Source of the DNA: Candidatus Gastranaerophilales bacterium
GTDB lineage: Bacteria; Cyanobacteriota; Vampirovibrionia; Gastranaerophilales; Gastranaerophilaceae
Assembly (NCBI GenBank): GCA_944324405.1
Contig: CALUWF010000009.1
Coordinates: forward strand, 1-52,292
DNA length: 52,292 nt
Reading direction: 5' to 3'
Shown: in pieces, positions 9,462 through 40,204 of the stretch
How the letters are laid out: each line of letters starts with the position of its first letter
Numbering within the stretch: the stretch's first letter is position 1
Made by a program: the position numbers and the translations under genes
Notes under the pieces: generated by a model
Databases searched by the model: none
Told to the model about the DNA's origin: nothing
What the model saw: only the letters and a program-made list of their open reading frames with translations

Positions 9462-10181
9462 TTACTGCTGGTAAATCCAGACGTCGAAATTTTCCGCTCT
9501 AAACTTTGAGGCAACCTGCTTTGCAATGCTTAAATCCTGATAAGAGCCAACTTGCAGCGCATAAATGTCACCGACTTTTCGAATAAAAGGGGTTGCACCC
9601 CTATTGACTTCTCTTACCGAATCCTGTGCCGCGCGTGCATCTTCAAAAGTTGCATATTTACCGATTAATACTTTTGAATATGCTGCAATATCAGGCTCGT
9701 TTTGTTTTGTTTCAACACCGCCGATGTCCTCCGGTTTTTTAGTATCGATTACGCTTTCGCTCGCTGCGGGCTCCTCGTCAATTTTTCCCTCTTCTTTTAT
9801 TTTGGCATACTGCTCAAGGTCAATTACTTCGTTGTTTTCTTTTTCACTGGATATTATTTTTGCCTCATTAGGTGCGTTTTCTTCAAGCTGTATTAGCTTT
9901 AAACGCTTGTCAATCAATCTTTTTGCATCATTGCCAAAACCTTGCGATAAAATGGAATCATCCGCCTGTCTTGAAGCAGTGTCAATATTTCTTCCGTATT
10001 CAATGTCAATCCTTGTGGCATATCTTTTTGCAACCTGCACAACAAGAGCAAAAATAACAGAGAATGTAATAATAAAAATCCAAAAAGCAACACGGAATTT
10101 TGACATACGCCTTTTGTATTCCTGATGCGGATTTATTTTACTTTTTTTGTATGTAAGATAATCAGGAGAATTCATACTCAT
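9462..10181 (-). CDS. SPOR-domain membrane-anchored protein
   Basis: SPOR domains bind denuded glycan strands of peptidoglycan, often at the division site. The protein has a cytoplasmic basic N-terminus (about 1-28), one membrane helix (FWIFIITFSVIFALVV, about 33-50), a charged linker, and a C-terminal SPOR domain (about 168-239) with VLIGKYATFEDARAAQ and VGDIYALQVGSYQDLS. This is the type II topology seen in FtsN and DedD-like proteins. It directly abuts the DUF366 gene (no spacing) and closes the HEAT-queC-DUF366-SPOR directon. A role in cell-envelope maintenance or division is inferred from the domain only. Confidence 0.85.
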   Translation of the reverse strand: MSMNSPDYLTYKKSKINPHQEYKRRMSKFRVAFWIFIITFSVIFALVVQVAKRYATRIDIEYGRNIDTASRQADDSILSQGFGNDAKRLIDKRLKLIQLEENAPNEAKIISSEKENNEVIDLEQYAKIKEEGKIDEEPAASESVIDTKKPEDIGGVETKQNEPDIAAYSKVLIGKYATFEDARAAQDSVREVNRGATPFIRKVGDIYALQVGSYQDLSIAKQVASKFRAENFDVWIYQQ

Positions 10182-13417: not shown

Positions 13418-15288
13418 CTTACGGCGAGGCAGTAGAACAAATTAAAAACAGGCTTGATATTGTGGATGTAATTTCAAAATATGTTGTTTTGAAAAAATCA
13501 GGCCACAATTACAGCGGTCTGTGCCCCTTTCATAATGAAAAAACCCCATCTTTTGTAGTCACGCCCTCAAGGCAAATTTTTAAATGTTTTGGCTGCGGCG
13601 AAGGCGGCGATGTCATTGCTTTTTTAATGAAAATAAACAACCAAAACTTTAAAGAAGTTATCGAAGAGCAGGCGGCAGCACTCGGTATTGAACTGCCAAG
13701 GGGCTCTAAAGACTCATCATCAAAATTTAAACAGGAAAAAGAACGCCTTTTGGGTGCGATGGATGAGGCCATGAAATTTTATCACAAGAAACTTCTTGAA
13801 AATGAAGGCGCTCTTAAATACCTTGAAAAAAGAGGGGTTAAGGAACTTGCCATAGGTAAATTTTTCCTGGGCCTTGCACCTAATTCAAATTTTGAACTTA
13901 AAGAGCATTTAAGGCAAAAAGGCTATACAAACGATGAAATGTATAAAGCGGGACTTTTATATGAAAAAAACGGCGATTTCTTGGACAGATTTAAAAACCG
14001 CATAATCATCCCCATAATGGATATTAATTCAAATACGATTGCCTTTGGTGCACGCGCAATTATGGAAGGGCAAAACCCAAAATATTTAAATTCGCCCGAT
14101 TCTTCAATCTATAATAAAAGCTCTGTGCTTTTCGGGCTTAATCGCGCAAAGGATTACATTAAACAAGAAGACAGCGCAATTATTATGGAAGGCTATTTTG
14201 ATGTAATATCGGCTCATGTCGCAGGTGTACAAAACGCTGTTGCTTCCTGCGGAACAGCTCTTACGCATCAGCATATAAAACTAATTGCGCGCTACAGCCC
14301 CTCAAGGAAAATTTATCTCGCTTTTGACTCTGATAACGCCGGACAAAAGGCAACAAAAGCAGGTGCGGAAGTTATAAAAAACATTTTCTCAAACCTGGGT
14401 GATATTAAACAATACGACTCAAGCTACGGAGAAAATACAGACTCTGTCTGTGAAATACGCGTGGTATCGCAAGTCGGCGGCAAAGACCCGGATGAATTTA
14501 TAAGAGAATTCGGCGCGGACGAGTATAAAAAACACATTCAAAATGCTCCTTTATTTCTTGACTACAGGTTAAATAAAACCCTTGAAGAAATAAATACCGC
14601 AGATATTACACCGCTTCAAAAAAGCGAAGCGGTACAGCAAATAGCCGATATTTTGTCGGAAATTCAAAATCCCGTAATTTTATCCGAATATATTAAAAAC
14701 ACATCTTTTAAATTAGACCTTGAAGAAGAAATACTTAAAACACAGGTGCAAAAATCAAAATATAAAAACACCACTCTTGAACAAATACAAAACATCCCTG
14801 ATACACTGCCCGCGCGACATGTTTCAAAGGATTTAAATACAAGATACACTCTTATGGAAAATAATCTCATCAAACTGGCCTTTGCTGCAAACACTCCGGA
14901 AAAGAAAAATTTTTATATCCATGCCATAAATAACTACAAAGCACGCGATACAGCAAACGGCGAAATTATTGCAGCTATTGACAAAGAGCTCAATGAGATA
15001 AATAATATTGATGAACTGGCAAAAAAAATCTTTTGCGCGTTTTACAATAATACGGACATACAACAAAAACTTTCAGATGAAATATTCTCTTCAACACAAT
15101 ATGAAAATCTTGACTTTGAAAACTATATACAAGCCGTTAACGAAACTTTTGACCGGCTAAAAAGCATAAACGACAAGCTTAAAAAAAATGAGTTCAGGCA
15201 AAAAATAAAAGACAAAAGCCTGAGCGAAAATGAGAAGCTTAAACTACTTTTCAAACAATTTGAAGCAAACAGAATGGAGACACTTTAA
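13405..15288 (+). CDS. dnaG: DNA primase DnaG
   Basis: Makes RNA primers for replication. CHC2 zinc finger Cys40-His43-Cys61-Cys64, then the primase core with the TOPRIM glutamate in [11 protein letters not shown], the acidic pair in [12 protein letters not shown], and a C-terminal helicase-interaction region rich in charged helices. Length 627 aa is normal. Overlaps dgt at its start and rpoD at its end (TAATG). Confidence 0.97.
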
Positions 15289-16361
15289 TGAGCAGAAAAA
15301 GAAATTCCGATGATTCAGTTATAAGCGTGGTTGATAAAAGCACGGATATGATAGGTGATGACGGGTATTTTGACTCGACAGGACTTGAAACCGATAATAT
15401 CAGTAATATTATCGGCAATCATGACGTAAATCCGATGGACACCGGTATCTCCGGCGGCTTTTTTGATAAAGTCGACGAGGAAGACTCGCAAGACGAAGAC
15501 ATTACGCCTCCGCGCGGAATTTCTGTTGATGACCCTGTCAGAATGTATTTAAGAGAAATCGGAAGAATTAAGCTCTTGACGGCAGATGAAGAAATTGATC
15601 TTGCAAGAAAAATCGTAGCAGGCGGCGCGCCCGGTGCAGTTGCAAAAAGAAAACTCGTGCAGGCAAACTTACGTCTAGTTGTTTCAATTGCAAAAAAATA
15701 CGTAGGACGCGGCATGCTCTTTTTGGATTTAATTCAGGAAGGCAATTTAGGCCTTATTCGTGCCGCAGAAAAATTTGACCATGAAAGAGGCTATAAATTT
15801 TCAACCTATGCAACCTGGTGGATAAGACAGGCAATTACGCGTGCTATTGCCGATCAGGCAAGGACAATAAGAATTCCTGTCCATATGGTTGAAACAATCA
15901 ATAAACTTAAAAAAGTTACAAGAAAACTTGCCCAGGAACTTGCAAGAAAACCGACCGAAGAGGAATTATCGGTTGAGATGGGCATTTCAATAAATAAATT
16001 AAGAGAAATCATTAAAGTAGCTCAAGAGCCCCTCTCTCTTGAAACCCCGATAGGCAAAGAGGAAGACTCCCGCCTTGGCGATTTTATAGAAGATAAAGAC
16101 GCTGATGCGCCTGTAAAAACAGTAGCACATGAACTTTTAAGAGAAGATTTGGCAGAAGTTTTAGGAAGCCTGTCTGCCCGCGAAAGAGATGTTTTAAGAC
16201 TGCGTTTCGGTATGGATGATGGCAGACAAAGAACCCTTGAAGAAGTCGGACAGCTCTTTGGCGTGACACGTGAACGTATCAGACAAATAGAAGCTAAGGC
16301 TTTAAGAAAATTAAGACATCCGAACCGTTCAAAAAGATTAAAAGAATACATTGAGGTTTAA
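15288..16361 (+). CDS. rpoD: primary sigma factor RpoD (sigma70)
   Basis: Housekeeping sigma factor. A short acidic N-terminus replaces a full region 1.1. Region 1.2 starts at [17 protein letters not shown], region 2 has the -10-recognising [18 protein letters not shown], and region 4 has the helix-turn-helix [19 protein letters not shown]. Length 357 aa is like group 1 factors of Cyanobacteria and Firmicutes. ATG overlaps the dnaG stop. Its standard regions 2.4 and 4.2 justify searching this window for TTGACA/TATAAT-type promoters, which are indeed found. Confidence 0.97.
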
Positions 16362-16366
16362 CATTT

Positions 16367-16389
16367 AAGGCAGGCTGAGCACCTGCCTT
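16367..16389 (+). terminator. hairpin after rpoD
   Basis: 8-bp stem AAGGCAGG/CCTGCCTT with a 7-nt loop, followed by a weak T-rich stretch. Moderate terminator for the dgt-dnaG-rpoD operon. Confidence 0.6.
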
Positions 16390-16473
16390 AATATTTATTT
16401 ACAAAAAAGTCAATTTTTTTCTCTCAATTTTTTTTATTATTTCAAGAGATTAAAAATAAGAGAGGAATTTTTC

Positions 16474-17136
16474 ATGTCTACCAACGGTATTTACGGACAA
16501 ATGCAAACTTGGCTTCAAACGCACGGCGAAAATATGGAAACATATTCAAGCACCCTGAGCGGAATTGACAGTGAACTGGACAAAATAAACAAAGAACTTC
16601 AAGGTGAACTCACTCAAAAAGAAGCGCGCGAATTATCCCAGCGTTTGAATGAACTTGAAGTAGAATATCTGCAAGCGGAACTTGATTACCTTAACGAAAC
16701 AAAAGAAGCCGGCAAATACTTTGATTTTATGGAAGGCAACTATGATATAAGCGATGCAGAAACATTTATACCTGCCTATGCCGAACAAACAGGTAAACTC
16801 GCACAGGGCGATATGGATGCCTGGGAACAAGACGGCAAAGAAGGTGTAAGTCTTGAAGAATACACTCTTGGACAGCTCGGCTCAAAAGAAGACAGTGCTC
16901 TTAGCAAAGAAGAATACAGCGCAGCTTCAAAATATGCCAAAGAAACATTTGAAGGAATAGACATTAACGGCAACGGTACTCTTGAAAAAAATGAATTGCA
17001 AGGCTTTTATGCAGCACTTGATAACGCAGACGGTTCTGTAAACGGAAAAATCGACATTGACTCAACCGGTGTTGATTTCACTTCCAAAAAATTCCAGGAC
17101 AACATAAAAAGTTTCCAAAAATATCTTGAAGAATAA
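16474..17136 (+). CDS. EF-hand protein with coiled-coil N-terminus
   Basis: First of three related genes. The N-terminal half is a predicted coiled coil (SELDKINKELQGELTQ and LNELEVEYLQAELDYL). The C-terminal half has a WEQDGKEGVSLEEY segment and a canonical EF-hand loop DINGNGTLEKNE (D1, N3, N5, E12), followed by DNADGSVNGKIDID. The last 15 residues (FQDNIKSFQKYLEE) match the end of the third gene (IEFQERLEE). There is no LysM domain, signal peptide or membrane helix, unlike what one expects of a secreted calcium protein. Own ribosome site (AGAGAGGAA) and own tandem terminators. Function unknown; calcium binding is inferred from the loop geometry. Confidence 0.7.
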   Translation: MSTNGIYGQMQTWLQTHGENMETYSSTLSGIDSELDKINKELQGELTQKEARELSQRLNELEVEYLQAELDYLNETKEAGKYFDFMEGNYDISDAETFIPAYAEQTGKLAQGDMDAWEQDGKEGVSLEEYTLGQLGSKEDSALSKEEYSAASKYAKETFEGIDINGNGTLEKNELQGFYAALDNADGSVNGKIDIDSTGVDFTSKKFQDNIKSFQKYLEE

Positions 17137-17147
17137 AGTTTTCTATG

Positions 17148-17169
17148 CCGCCCTTTACGGGCGGTTTTT
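17148..17169 (+). terminator. terminator 1 after first EF-hand gene
   Basis: CCGCCC/GGGCGG stem with 5-nt loop and TTTTT tail. Confidence 0.85.
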
Positions 17170-17180
17170 GTGCTTATTTT

Positions 17181-17208
17181 ATGCCGCCCTTAAAAAGGCG
17201 GCATTTTA
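17181..17208 (+). terminator. terminator 2 after first EF-hand gene
   Basis: 8-bp stem ATGCCGCC/GGCGGCAT with 8-nt loop, T-rich tail. Its left arm repeats that of the preceding hairpin, so the two could also form alternative pairs. Confidence 0.75.
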
Positions 17209-17300
17209 TATTGTAAAGTTATGTAACAAAGTAAAAACTTTTTGAAATATCAAAATTATATACGTTTTATATAATATGTAAGCAAGAAAAAGGTAGCACC

Positions 17301-18059
17301 ATGAACTATACAATACAAAGCGGCGATTCACTCTGGGGCATAGCAACTCAACAATGCGGTGCAAAAAGCATAGCACAAATCCAATCAATGATAAATCAAA
17401 TAGTAAGCCTCAATAATCTGGGCAGCCAAAATGCCACAATATTCTCGGGTGTAACCCTTAAATTGCCGAGCGATATTTTTGAAATGACAGGCAGCAAAAC
17501 TTCAGAAGATAAAAACAACACAAACGATGAAAACCTTGCACAATCTAATCAACAAACAACGCTTGTCTCATTCAGTATTTTTGATGTTCTGAAAAACCTT
17601 AATAAAGTAAGCGATATAGGCACCCTGATGAACAGTTTGACAGAAGCGCTGAATTCCGCAATGAACGGAAAAAACAATGAAGACAATACCGTAAAACTCG
17701 GCTCTGAAGAAAAAGACGAAGAAGAACAGGAAAAATACGAAGAAAACCTCAAAAGTACCGCTAACGGAACCTTTAAAAACCTTAGCGAAGAAGAGGGCGT
17801 ATCTTATGATAACTTCTTAAACTGGTATAACCAAGGTCTGAGCGCGCAAAAAAGAGAAGTATATTCACAAAACGAAGCGCAGTTAAGGTCAGCTTTTGAC
17901 AGTTTTGATACAAATCATGATTCAATCCTTGATGCAACTGAAATTGAAAACATTTTTGAAGCATATAAAAAAATTAACAATCAAATTGATAAAATAATAA
18001 AACAAGAAAAATTAGACAACCCTGAAACAGATAAAGAAAACACGCTTGCAAGAGCGTAA
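17301..18059 (+). CDS. LysM plus EF-hand protein
   Basis: Begins directly with a LysM domain (about residues 1-54: YTIQSGDSLWGIATQQCG, later TIFSGVTLKLPSDIF). A low-complexity acidic linker follows (EEKDEEEQEKYEEN), then EEEGVSYDNFLNWY, and one EF-hand loop DTNHDSILDATE with Ser in place of the usual Gly at loop position 6. LysM binds N-acetylglucosamine polymers such as peptidoglycan, yet no signal peptide precedes it, so the export route, if any, is unknown. ATG chosen with AAAAAGG upstream; a TATAAT lies at 17270-17275. The gene ends in a strong hairpin of its own. Confidence 0.8.
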   Translation: MNYTIQSGDSLWGIATQQCGAKSIAQIQSMINQIVSLNNLGSQNATIFSGVTLKLPSDIFEMTGSKTSEDKNNTNDENLAQSNQQTTLVSFSIFDVLKNLNKVSDIGTLMNSLTEALNSAMNGKNNEDNTVKLGSEEKDEEEQEKYEENLKSTANGTFKNLSEEEGVSYDNFLNWYNQGLSAQKREVYSQNEAQLRSAFDSFDTNHDSILDATEIENIFEAYKKINNQIDKIIKQEKLDNPETDKENTLARA

Positions 18060-18062
18060 AAC

Positions 18063-18091
18063 AAAGGCGCACCAAAAGGTGCGCCTTTTTT
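18063..18091 (+). terminator. terminator after second LysM/EF-hand gene
   Basis: Perfect 11-bp stem AAAGGCGCACC with its complement, AAAA loop, T6 tail. Confidence 0.92.
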
Positions 18092-18189
18092 GTATTTAAA
18101 ATTCAATTTAACATTTTTTAACAAAATATTAAGTAATATAAGGCATCTGCCGACAATATTTGAGTCACAAGGAAGCAAAAGGTAAAAAT

Positions 18190-19101
18190 ATGGATTATCA
18201 AATTAAAAGCGGCGATACGCTCTGGAAAATCGCAAAAGAGCAATGCGGTGCAGCATCTAATGCTGACATTATGGCAAAAATTAACGAAATAGCAGAGCTT
18301 AACAATATAGAAAATCCTGACCTGATATTTGCAAATGACACACTTATGCTGCCCGGCGACACTTTTGAGCCTAACAGCGAAACTGAAGAGGCTGATGAAG
18401 ACAATCAGCCACAAACGCAAGAAGAAAACACTGAACAAAGCGGACAAAACAAACGGCAAACAGGACAACAAACCGCCATAGCTCAAGATTTTAACAACTG
18501 GGTGGATGAGCATGGAGCAGCAATGGACAGGTACTCGGATGCGCTTGATGAATACAGCGGACTGCTTGACAATTTTTACGAAGATTTAAACAACGGAGCG
18601 CTTGATACTGAAAAAATTCAAGAAGCAAATGATGCTCTTGCCGTGGCGGAGCAAAATTATCAAGATGAAACCGCACAAATAGGCGATTTTAGCTTTGTTG
18701 GCGAAGATGTTAATCTCTACAATGAAGACGGCAAGGTAAACTTTGATACATACGCAAGCCAGGGCGAAGCATTTGCGCAGGCAATGATTGACAGCTGGGA
18801 ACAAGACGGCGAAGAAGGCACTGACTATAAAGAATACTATAATGCCGAAATTGCCCGCATGGGTGATATGGAGATTACAAGCTACATAGAAGACACAATT
18901 AAAGACACATTTGATATGATGGATTTAAACAATGACGGCAAAATAAGCACAATTGAAGCACAAAGTATCTATTCTACGATTGATATGTCTGATGGAAGCG
19001 CTGACGGAAAAATTAACATTGATTCATACTCACAAGCCCCGCTTGCAAAAGACACAATAAAAGAAAGCGCTATAGAATTTCAGGAAAGACTTGAAGAATA
19101 A
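18190..19101 (+). CDS. LysM plus EF-hand protein, third member
   Basis: Combines the features of the two preceding genes. An N-terminal LysM (YQIKSGDTLWKIAKEQCG to LMLPGDTFEP, about 1-58) closely resembles the second gene; a Glu/Gln-rich linker follows. The C-terminal half matches the first gene: IDSWEQDGEEGTDYKEYY, EF-hand loop DLNNDGKISTIE, then DMSDGSADGKINID, ending FQERLEE. No signal peptide. The ATG at 18190 (with AAAAGG) is taken over an upstream in-frame TTG. The trio looks like a duplication series in which the LysM module was gained or lost. Confidence 0.8.
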   Translation: MDYQIKSGDTLWKIAKEQCGAASNADIMAKINEIAELNNIENPDLIFANDTLMLPGDTFEPNSETEEADEDNQPQTQEENTEQSGQNKRQTGQQTAIAQDFNNWVDEHGAAMDRYSDALDEYSGLLDNFYEDLNNGALDTEKIQEANDALAVAEQNYQDETAQIGDFSFVGEDVNLYNEDGKVNFDTYASQGEAFAQAMIDSWEQDGEEGTDYKEYYNAEIARMGDMEITSYIEDTIKDTFDMMDLNNDGKISTIEAQSIYSTIDMSDGSADGKINIDSYSQAPLAKDTIKESAIEFQERLEE

Positions 19102-19107
19102 AAAATT

Positions 19108-19132
19108 AAAGCGGTTTGAAACCGCTTTTTTT
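19108..19132 (+). terminator. terminator after third EF-hand gene
   Basis: GCGGTT/AACCGC stem extended by AAA/TTT, 3-nt loop, T7 tail. Confidence 0.88.
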
Positions 19133-19148
19133 ATAATTAAAACTGTTG

Positions 19149-19164
19149 TATAATAGCCTCTATG
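19149..19164 (+). promoter_or_regulatory. -10 box adjacent to gmk start codon
   Basis: Perfect TATAAT (19149-19154) ends 7 nt before the gmk ATG at 19162, directly after the preceding terminator. No Shine-Dalgarno; a leaderless transcript for the gmk-coaBC-nif3-aroCKB run is predicted. Confidence 0.6.
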
Positions 19165-19734
19165 AAAGAGCACAAGGCAAAATTATACGTTATAACCGGA
19201 CCCTCGGGCGTAGGAAAAGGAACCGTATTAAAAAAATTCTTTGAAAAAAACAAAGGAAGTATTATCTACTCTATCTCCGCAACAACAAGAAAGCCGCGCG
19301 AAGGAGAGCTTGAAGGTGTGAATTATTTTTTTATTTCAAAAGAAGAATTTAAAAAAGAAATAAAAGAGGATAATTTCCTTGAATGGGCAAAATATTCAGA
19401 TAATTACTACGGCACAAGAAAAGATTTTGTTCTGAATTCACTTGAAAAGGGTACGGATGTGCTTCTTGAAATTGAAACATCGGGTGCCAAAAAAGTTATG
19501 GAAAAATTCCCCGATTGTGTTTCAATTTTTATAATGCCGCCCGATATGGAAGAGCTTGAAAAACGTCTAAGGGGCAGAAAAACAGAGTGTGAAGAGGCAA
19601 TTTTAAAACGTCTTGAAATTGTAAAAACAGAACTTAGCGAAGCAAAAAATTACAAATATACAATTGTAAATGATAAAGTAGATAAAACATTTGAAGAACT
19701 TAATGAAATTTATCTAAAAGAGAGGATGTTATGA
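19162..19734 (+). CDS. gmk: guanylate kinase
   Basis: Phosphorylates GMP to GDP with ATP. P-loop GPSGVGKGTV near residue 13, the GMP-binding STTRKPREGE-type segment (here ATTRKPREGELEGVNYFF), and the lid region RLRGRKTE. 190 aa is typical. First gene of a tightly overlapping run. Its stop overlaps the coaBC ATG (ATGA). In many bacteria rpoZ (omega) lies between these two genes; it is absent here. Confidence 0.95.
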   Translation: MKEHKAKLYVITGPSGVGKGTVLKKFFEKNKGSIIYSISATTRKPREGELEGVNYFFISKEEFKKEIKEDNFLEWAKYSDNYYGTRKDFVLNSLEKGTDVLLEIETSGAKKVMEKFPDCVSIFIMPPDMEELEKRLRGRKTECEEAILKRLEIVKTELSEAKNYKYTIVNDKVDKTFEELNEIYLKERML

Positions 19735-38459: not shown

Positions 38460-38474
38460 TATACTAGTATCATG
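38460..38474 (+). promoter_or_regulatory. -10 box adjacent to start codon at 38472
   Basis: TATACT (38460-38465), 6 nt, ATG. No clear -35 and no Shine-Dalgarno. Confidence 0.45.
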
Positions 38475-39368
38475 AAAATCGAGCATTTAACATCTCACTT
38501 AAATTTTAATTCTTCGCCGCATATGCATAGCGCAAAGGGCAAAGCCAAAAAAGGTGCAGTCTATTTAGGCGAGAGAACGAGTGTAGAGAATAAAAGTGTA
38601 AATAAAAACAGACCCGCTAAAAGTGTAAACTTTAGCGGGTCTGTAAGTTTAAATGACGTAATAGAGGCAAAACCGGCGCAAATAATACAAGAAGAGCTTA
38701 CAAAACTTGTAACGGAAGGCAAAACAAAAGATTTTAAAAACATAAATCTTAACGCAGGCAAATTGTCTTACAACTTTATAAATTCAAAATTCATGACAAG
38801 GGCACTCACTATTGTTAATGAAAACGAATCAAAATTTGAAAATATTATTACAATTTTTCTTGCAGGTATGTTAAAACCTTTGTGTGTACTTGCCATGCCG
38901 GGAGCAGAAAAAGAAGACAAACAAATGTCTGCCACCAAAAACTTCGTATCGGCAGTAATAGGTTTTGGACTTTCCTGCTTAATTCTTACCCCTGTTTCAA
39001 AGTCTGTTAAAAAAGTTACAAAAAATCTCAATAAATTTATAAAAGACCCTGACTATATAAGACTCATAGATAAAAAAGAATTTGGCGATTTTGTAAAATA
39101 CGGCGGTAAAGAAGTTGAAGTCGGCAGCATGGCTGATGCGTTTTCAACATTTTATAAAAAAATTCCGGACTTAGCCATCACTCCTACAAAAGCAGCTATT
39201 TCAATTGCACTTACGCCATATGTCTTAGACTTTATCTTTAAGAAAGACAAAAAAGAAGCGGCAAAAGCGCAAACAGCACAGCCTAATATTCAAACACAGC
39301 CATCAGGCATAGAGCTTAAAGAAAATGAACAAATATTTAACCAATTTAGGGGAGGTGCGATAAGATGA
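38472..39368 (+). CDS. lineage-type membrane protein with N-terminal NFSG motif
   Basis: No named family. Residues 1-50 are basic and low in structure and end in VNFSGSVSLND. Then come helices, a hydrophobic segment (ENIITIFLAGMLKPLCVLAM, about 130-149), a second (FVSAVIGFGLSCLILTPVS, about 160-178), a basic middle, and a third (TKAAISIALTPYVLDFIF), followed by a charged Ala/Gln-rich tail. Together with the next gene, which shares the VNFG start, a late hydrophobic segment and a Gln/Ala tail, it forms a co-translated pair (ATGA overlap). Membrane location is inferred; function unknown. Confidence 0.68.
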   Translation: MKIEHLTSHLNFNSSPHMHSAKGKAKKGAVYLGERTSVENKSVNKNRPAKSVNFSGSVSLNDVIEAKPAQIIQEELTKLVTEGKTKDFKNINLNAGKLSYNFINSKFMTRALTIVNENESKFENIITIFLAGMLKPLCVLAMPGAEKEDKQMSATKNFVSAVIGFGLSCLILTPVSKSVKKVTKNLNKFIKDPDYIRLIDKKEFGDFVKYGGKEVEVGSMADAFSTFYKKIPDLAITPTKAAISIALTPYVLDFIFKKDKKEAAKAQTAQPNIQTQPSGIELKENEQIFNQFRGGAIR

Positions 39369-40204
39369 AAATAGCACCTGTTCAAAATAGCCCGAAAAAC
39401 AACGTAAATTTTGGCGCGGTGTCCTCCATTTCAAAATACGGCGACAACCTCCAAAATGCCATAGTAAAATCCATAGATAAATCATTCGATAATATTTTGC
39501 CCAAAATTAGCGACAACGAGAAAGAGCTTGGGCCGATTTACGATAAAATAACCGACGGCATAGCTTCTATAATCGGTACGGCGGCAAATACCGGCGTTTC
39601 CAAAAAACTTGTGAACACTTTAAATAAATTTAAAAAACCATCCGCAAGAATGGCAGACCTTGCCTCTTTTGCAATTACTTTCTTTTATGTTAATAACACA
39701 AGAAAATCTAAAAAGATTGAAGAAGAGCGCAAAATGCCTCTTATGGTTAACAATATCGCAATAACCATTGTGTCTTCAACAATGGCGGCATTAATTGATA
39801 AATTCAGCGATGTCGCTCTGGACAGAGTAAAAGGTGCGCTTTACAATCAAAAGGGCACACAGGTGCTTGAACAAACTCTTGATACAATAAAAAGTGCAAA
39901 TTTAACAAACGAACTCAATGGCCACAGCATTGAAGAACTCGGCAAAGACATCTTAAGCTCGCAAGAATTTATTAAAAATATAAGAGAATACTCAAAACGC
40001 TTTGAAAAAGCAAAATCGCTTACAATTTTCTCAATTACCGTAAGATTTCTCGTAACGGTTCTTATGGTTCCCGTTGTCGGTAAACTCGTTAAGATGATAA
40101 AAGAAAATGTCAATAAAGACCCGCAGCAAGCACAAGCCCAACAGACGCAAGCACAGCCGAAAGCCGATGATATCGACAAAGATGATAACGATGATGACGA
40201 TTAA
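39365..40204 (+). CDS. lineage-type membrane protein, partner of preceding gene
   Basis: Starts MKIAPVQNSPKNNVNFGAVS, the same VNF-small pattern as its neighbour. It has three hydrophobic helices (MADLASFAITFFYVN about 96-110, then KMPLMVNNIAITIVSSTMAA, then FSITVRFLVTVLMVPVVGKL near 235), then a Gln/Ala repeat and a very acidic tail (DDIDKDDNDDDD). 279 aa. The start is certain: GGGGAGGTG lies before the ATG, which overlaps the upstream stop by 4 bp. A strong hairpin follows. Function unknown; the pair may form one membrane complex. Confidence 0.7.
   Translation: MKIAPVQNSPKNNVNFGAVSSISKYGDNLQNAIVKSIDKSFDNILPKISDNEKELGPIYDKITDGIASIIGTAANTGVSKKLVNTLNKFKKPSARMADLASFAITFFYVNNTRKSKKIEEERKMPLMVNNIAITIVSSTMAALIDKFSDVALDRVKGALYNQKGTQVLEQTLDTIKSANLTNELNGHSIEELGKDILSSQEFIKNIREYSKRFEKAKSLTIFSITVRFLVTVLMVPVVGKLVKMIKENVNKDPQQAQAQQTQAQPKADDIDKDDNDDDD

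Follow-up and report, generated by a model that had tools for sequence, protein, structure and literature searches.

Three adjacent genes for EF-hand proteins without Sec signals, two of them with an N-terminal LysM domain, in a Gastranaerophilales genome: candidate wall-associated calcium-binding proteins

How might proteins that join a wall-binding module to calcium-binding loops do their work when none of them carries a recognisable export signal? This question is raised by three adjacent genes, here called genes 1, 2 and 3, in a stretch of 52,292 nucleotides from Candidatus Gastranaerophilales bacterium (GCA_944324405.1, CALUWF010000009.1). The stretch, hereafter the window, makes up all of contig C9 in a 48-contig genome of 1.80 Mb. 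We find that the three genes are real, that all three encode an EF-hand, that the LysM head moves between paralogues and that the missing Sec signal is shared by LysM and EF-hand proteins throughout the order. Tentatively, with a probability of about 0.45, we favour the view that the trio are wall-associated calcium-binding proteins that reach the outside independently of Sec and become ordered in external calcium.

Results

Genes 1–3 lie between rpoD and gmk

The three open reading frames (ORFs) are on the + strand and are flanked by rpoD (15288-16361) and gmk (19162-19734):

16474..17136, + strand: gene 1, 220 amino acids (aa); predicted N-terminal helical hairpin, then a C-domain with a putative EF-hand pair and a third acidic loop (ORF, Pfam, orthologues, model)
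17301..18059, + strand: gene 2, 252 aa; N-terminal LysM, variable linker, single EF-hand and a C-terminal tail of its own (ORF, Pfam, orthologues)
18190..19101, + strand: gene 3, 303 aa; N-terminal LysM, acidic linker predicted to be disordered, C-domain homologous to that of gene 1 (ORF, Pfam, model)

Orthologues of genes 1 and 2 were found at the same rpoD–gmk position in three congeners (G091, G252 and L075, the last a named GTDB record). For the orthologue pairs that could be computed, the ratio of non-synonymous to synonymous substitution rates (dN/dS) was 0.15-0.25, and genes 1 and 2 are under purifying selection. From the syntenic orthologues and the low dN/dS we conclude that the three ORFs are real genes, more than chance would give. 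Gene 3 is absent from the rpoD–gmk position in the three congeners, and the closest relative found for its C-terminal part is 47% identical, in genus g22 (L166). The same position in the mouse-gut Melainabacteria genome iMGMC-526 (L077) holds a single ORF of 393 aa with a LysM domain and EF loops. In a comparison of 15 syntenic genes with G091 and L075, genes 1 and 2 were the least conserved, a level of divergence that is often seen in surface proteins.

The C-domain carries a putative EF-hand pair and a third acidic loop

Genes 1 and 3 have a homologous C-domain with 31-36% identity (32%, E 5.6e-19). The C-terminus of gene 2 differs (19-23% identity to genes 1 and 3), and gene 2 shares with them no more than the EF-hand and some of the segment before it. 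An earlier note on this DNA had described a WEQDG-type segment, an EF loop and a similar C-terminus as common to all three genes; the EF loop is indeed present in all three, but the WEQDG segment and the C-terminus are common to genes 1 and 3 only, gene 2 lacking WEQDG and having a different tail. When single proteins were searched by hmmscan, the EF-hands of genes 1–3 gave E-values of 1e-3 to 2e-5, below the Pfam gathering cut-offs, and the EF-hand of gene 3 passed its cut-off in the genome search (29 versus 25.9 bits). The loops are placed as follows:

16822..16863, + strand: gene 1, WEQDGKEGVSLEEY segment, probably a degenerate first EF-hand loop (falls on canonical EF loops in the homologue alignment; invariant E at position 12 of the loop)
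16960..16995, + strand: gene 1, canonical EF loop DINGNGTLEKNE (Pfam, homologue alignment)
17020..17055, + strand: gene 1, third loop DNADGSVNGKID, non-canonical and acidic (alignment; first D invariant, both G nearly invariant)
17907..17942, + strand: gene 2, EF loop DTNHDSILDATE (Pfam EF-hand_6, E 1.5e-4; Gly at position 6 replaced by Ser, canonical DTNGDGVLDSDE in the orthologue L075)
18796..18837, + strand: gene 3, WEQDGEEGTDYKEY segment, probably a degenerate first EF-hand loop (homologue alignment, model)
18922..18957, + strand: gene 3, canonical EF loop DLNNDGKISTIE (Pfam, genome search, alignment)
18982..19017, + strand: gene 3, third loop DMSDGSADGKIN (homologue alignment)

An alignment of 12 homologues gave the order of elements in the C-domain as a Trp-containing helix, 'FDFxEG', the first EF-hand, the second EF-hand and 'DxxDGxxDGKI'. 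In other members the first loop is canonical (DYNKDGEVAFEE in L010 and DKNNDGTISKEE in L020), and the alignment points to 'WEQDG' being a derived first EF-hand that drifted in genes 1 and 3 and not an extra motif. The homologues are 18-62% identical to gene 1, yet some columns do not vary at all: those of the Glu at position 12 in each EF loop and, in the third loop, that of its first Asp. A lack of conservation of the EF loops among homologues had been named beforehand as a finding that would speak against the proposed family; it is the calcium-ligand positions that are invariant. The conserved acidic ligands and Glu12 agree with the EF-hand ligand pattern and suggest calcium binding.

Structure prediction, proposed earlier as a check, gave AlphaFold models of low confidence (pLDDT, the predicted local distance difference test score, 60 for gene 1 and 51 for gene 3). 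In both models the WEQDG loop and the canonical loop each contain a short strand and are flanked by helices, which would correspond to the topology of an EF-hand pair. A C-domain profile matched calmodulin chains at E about 1e-14; Foldseek returned no match at E <= 0.001. The C-domain thus resembles the calmodulin-type EF-hand pairs (EF-hand_5, EF-hand_7) in its helix-loop-helix pair, loop strands, acidic ligands and Glu12, but genes 1 and 3 differ from them by the degenerate first loop and the third, extended non-canonical loop. The EF-hand region of gene 1 also matched lanmodulin (LanM, NF053806), a periplasmic lanthanide binder, with E 1.6e-4, but at 21.7 bits versus a cut-off of 135.

Across the class, 133 of 240 genomes matched the C-domain profile at E <= 1e-3. 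Strong matches (E 1e-8 or better) were found only in the order of the window, the weaker ones outside it covering mainly generic EF segments. This search bears out the earlier suggestion that the family is special to its lineage, and the C-domain is apparently essentially confined to Gastranaerophilales. Within this range the distribution of the family is patchy and paralogous, and a search for related loci with gene 1 alone as query found no relatives.

The LysM head is exchangeable

Genes 2 and 3, unlike gene 1, begin with a LysM domain (PF01476, Pfam cut-off 20.9 bits):

17307..17468, + strand: gene 2, LysM domain, residues 3-56 (Pfam, 34.7 bits; genome search)
18196..18354, + strand: gene 3, LysM domain, residues 3-55 (Pfam, 38.8 bits; genome search)

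Gene 1 has no LysM domain by Pfam, so that the earlier description of LysM at the extreme N-terminus of two genes and not of the first stands. Most LysM-bearing homologues keep the domain at residues 2-3. In G252, the LysM domain of the second gene is closer to that of gene 3 than to that of gene 2 (72% versus 60%), whereas its C-terminal part is of the gene 2 type (44%, versus 22% to gene 3). In two other genomes (G007 and G013) a protein that has the unit twice but no LysM is followed by a LysM-bearing protein, and in further relatives LysM is replaced by quite different N-termini. Judged from this hybrid, these pairs and the alternative N-termini, the LysM head is exchangeable between paralogues, as the word 'mobile' in the earlier note had implied.

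The LysM domains of genes 2 and 3 resemble known wall-binding LysM modules in sequence, above the cut-off, but start at residue 3 and are accompanied by neither a signal peptide nor a catalytic domain. An alignment of LysM only, used as a query, matched mostly generic LysM proteins of other phyla, and searches of the trio against PHROGs and NCBIfam gave LysM-driven or weak EF matches only. The trio scored 16.2 bits against SafA/ExsA (TIGR02899), for which the cut-off is 67.85. SafA, a protein of spore formers, has an N-terminal LysM domain and lacks a signal peptide; it is not known to carry EF-hands. Kbp/YgaU (PRK11198) gave a weak, LysM-only match (23.7 bits, cut-off 134). This cytoplasmic potassium-binding LysM protein, which has no signal peptide, carries its LysM at the C-terminus together with a BON domain, whereas the LysM of the trio is N-terminal and is combined with EF-hands. 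A literature search found no paper that brings bacterial EF-hands, calcium binding and LysM together. Neither LysM nor the EF-hand is unusual as a domain; what is new is their combination in order-specific, module-swapping proteins that lack a signal peptide.

The missing Sec signal is an order-wide habit

The maximum hydropathy over 11 residues within the first 60 aa was 0.11, 1.31 and 1.19 for genes 1, 2 and 3, and by hydropathy none of the three has a signal peptide or a transmembrane segment. The lack of an export signal had been noticed before; it is, however, no peculiarity of the trio. In 60 genomes of the order, hydropathy showed essentially no Sec-type N-terminus in the top 30 LysM loci or in the EF-hand loci that could be interpreted (about 27), the apparent exceptions looking like mis-starts. 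One LysM family of roughly 190 aa appears to be membrane-anchored, with LysM near the C-terminus. We conclude that going without a Sec signal is the habit of LysM and EF-hand proteins across the order. Many LysM proteins of the order that lack a signal peptide carry phage-type lysozyme, amidase_3 or glucosaminidase domains. Since peptidoglycan hydrolase or CHAP domains occur in such LysM and EF-hand proteins, these are apparently meant for peptidoglycan, and the habit extends to enzymes that act on a substrate beyond the cytoplasmic membrane.

Sec-less LysM proteins with such hydrolase domains are common in the order and lie at L179, L180, L182, L184, L190, L193, L194, L196, L206 and L207, and at L021. 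The window's own genome encodes a 567-aa protein without a signal peptide (G000:C32, L051/L073:6441-8144) that has an EF-hand-like loop, a coiled coil and a C-terminal CHAP domain. An EF-hand protein of roughly 185 aa, likewise without a signal peptide and with the conserved N-terminus 'LLAGIYAGLTNTYSYL..', recurs in many genomes of the order (L220, L231, L232, L233; L046 on G000:C10 in the window's genome). A Sec-less protein of 459 aa (L026:292-1671) has a C-terminal LysM behind what looks by eye like a calpain-like N-terminal part (QGSRGDCYLLAAINGLAQ).

A second flagellar-type secretion apparatus is present in nearly all genomes of the order

If the proteins are exported, a second, divergent type III secretion system (T3SS) of flagellar type would be one candidate route. 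FlhA and FliP each come in two types in the order. Only some of the genomes have the flagellar type; nearly all, including those without the flagellar pair, have the second (FlhA about 720-735 bits, FliP about 213-220 aa), and some FliP was detected in 145 of 146 genomes. The second-type FlhA of the window's genome belongs to a cluster (C3:17539-24168, L040/L041) that also encodes proteins resembling FliH, FliF and FliE, a protein of 313 aa that has no Pfam match, and a lytic transglycosylase (SLT) that lacks a signal peptide. This FlhA stays below the curated cut-offs for both flagellar FlhA (705.8 versus 772.1) and the injectisome protein SctV (594.7 versus 692.25). In G007 and G013 the LysM–EF pair is the convergent neighbour, at about 206 bp, of the fliR-fliQ-fliP genes of the second apparatus.

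Complete flagella have been described in some Gastranaerophilales (PMC3787301), and other members have incomplete flagellar gene sets, which have been interpreted as remnants of flagella in non-motile Gastranaerophilales (Soo 2014, PMC4040986). Our literature search on Gastranaerophilales and type III secretion returned irrelevant papers only, others having described flagella only; no paper was found that treats the second flagellar-type set of the order as a secretion system, which does not prove that none exists.

Counterparts of the second T3SS cluster were seen at L060-L065 and L069, with FliN/M-like, FliO-like, FliP, FliQ and FliR proteins encoded elsewhere. Many Sec-less proteins start with a short disordered head that ends, by eye, in an 'I/V-N-F-x-G/S/K'-like motif, possibly a targeting signal (in the window at 364-726, 38472-39368 and 39365-40204; also at L041:4251-5756, L060:3302-4204, L061:7308-7715 and L065:2986-4308), and several of these proteins adjoin second T3SS clusters.

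Exported wall proteins or internal calcium sensors

The reading we favour can be set out as a sequence of steps. The proteins are small and modular: LysM at the N-terminus where present, then either a linker that varies or a helical hairpin, and last a C-domain made of an EF-hand pair and a third extended acidic loop. They would be synthesised in the cytoplasm without a Sec signal and would then leave by a non-Sec route; millimolar external Ca2+ would order the EF domain, and LysM would tether two of the three to peptidoglycan. The outcome would be calcium-dependent proteins, structural or adhesive, that are attached to the wall. We infer Ca2+ binding, Ca2+-induced folding, location at the wall and peptidoglycan binding, and a calcium-responsive system is suggested by the chemistry of the loops only.

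Several observations weigh against this reading. No export signal is present in any of the three proteins, there is hardly space for a disordered T3SS signal when the LysM fold begins as early as residue 2-3, the structural models are of low confidence, and elsewhere there are LysM and EF-hand proteins that stay in the cytoplasm. Apart from the one genus of G007 and G013, no second apparatus was found near a locus of the family in about 35 lineages scanned, and this single adjacency is therefore weak evidence for a link with the T3SS. In families f9, f14 and f15 the second FlhA is present (about 64-66% identity where listed) and the sampled genomes have a single LysM protein each, of the membrane-anchored type in those inspected. 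In f8 and f13 there is no FlhA match, yet LysM proteins without a signal peptide are present, with no recognisable hydrolase in the seven scanned. At the level of the class, the second T3SS and LysM proteins without a signal peptide are not associated. The second T3SS was therefore dropped as a general explanation of such proteins and demoted from best explanation to candidate route.

The main rival is that the trio are never exported and act as cytoplasmic calcium sensors or buffers, the EF-hands reading or buffering cytosolic Ca2+ and LysM serving as an internal binding module, as it does in the cytoplasmic Kbp/YgaU. That each gene is its own unit beside rpoD, that none has a Sec signal, and that signal-less LysM proteins with no recognisable hydrolase occur in the f8 and f13 genomes, which gave no FlhA match, would all fit such a role. 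The patchy distribution, paralogy, LysM swapping and fast divergence would not, and the peptidoglycan hydrolases borne by related LysM and EF-hand proteins would be useless or harmful in the cytosol; we regard this alternative as possible but doubtful. As a sub-case of the favoured reading, the three proteins may be substrates of the second T3SS, threaded unfolded and folded outside by Ca2+. Its near-universal FlhA and FliP, the signal-less transglycosylase in its cluster and the 206-bp neighbourhood in G007 and G013 argue for this route, but the adjacency in one lineage of about 35, the class-wide result, the unusual position of LysM for a T3SS substrate and the fact that no chaperone or signal was identified make it unlikely. 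The broader proposal that the order uses the second T3SS to export a Sec-less repertoire of peptidoglycan-binding and EF-hand proteins, the trio included, with external calcium as the folding switch, we consider improbable.

Release by lysis, in which the proteins would accumulate in the cytosol and then coat the peptidoglycan of siblings or debris, draws on matches of PHROG endolysin and transglycosylase profiles to genes 2 and 3, made through their LysM part, and on the many signal-less LysM relatives in the order that are phage-type lysozymes. The trio has no catalytic domain by Pfam, however, and lies at a conserved chromosomal locus among housekeeping genes and not in a prophage; this account is quite improbable. 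Export by the ordinary flagellar T3SS could be considered since a flagellar fliP-flhB-flhA cluster and five flagellin matches are present in the window's genome, but no flagellar genes flank the loci examined. Because members of the family occur in genomes without flagellar FlhA or FliP (G089, G095, G109, G126 and G141), this route is disfavoured and seems very improbable.

What follows depends on where the proteins act. The broader pattern is that of an order with abundant peptidoglycan-active proteins without signal peptides and a near-universal second export apparatus. If the proteins reach the wall, a gut order would deliver a large part of its LysM and EF-hand proteins independently of Sec, unlike the usual delivery of such domains, and gene sets that have been taken for flagellar remnants may function as an export machine. 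Should the proteins instead remain in the cell, they would form a new, order-specific family of bacterial calcium sensors. Secretome predictions based on signal peptides would miss these proteins in this lineage.

Gene boundaries and neighbouring features

The start of gene 3 is the ATG at 18190, directly ahead of LysM, the TTG at 18160 being the mechanical ORF start only. The products of genes 1–3 are strongly acidic (isoelectric point 4.0-4.4) and contain 0-1 Cys each, features that count in favour of the wall-associated reading. A hairpin scan located the following elements, for which the expectation from shuffled sequence is 2.8 for the whole region on both strands:

16365..16391, + strand: terminator-like hairpin after rpoD, upstream of gene 1
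17147..17204, + strand: two terminator-like hairpins after gene 1
18063..18088, + strand: terminator-like hairpin after gene 2
19108..19128, + strand: terminator-like hairpin after gene 3

These hairpins, 3' of each of genes 1, 2 and 3, agree with the statement in the earlier note that every gene has its own terminator. The same note had grouped a SPOR domain with the trio, which was mistaken: the SPOR-like protein is encoded by an unrelated gene 6 kb away (9462-10181, - strand), and this protein, its SPOR domain assigned by eye, has an N-terminal transmembrane segment of its own.

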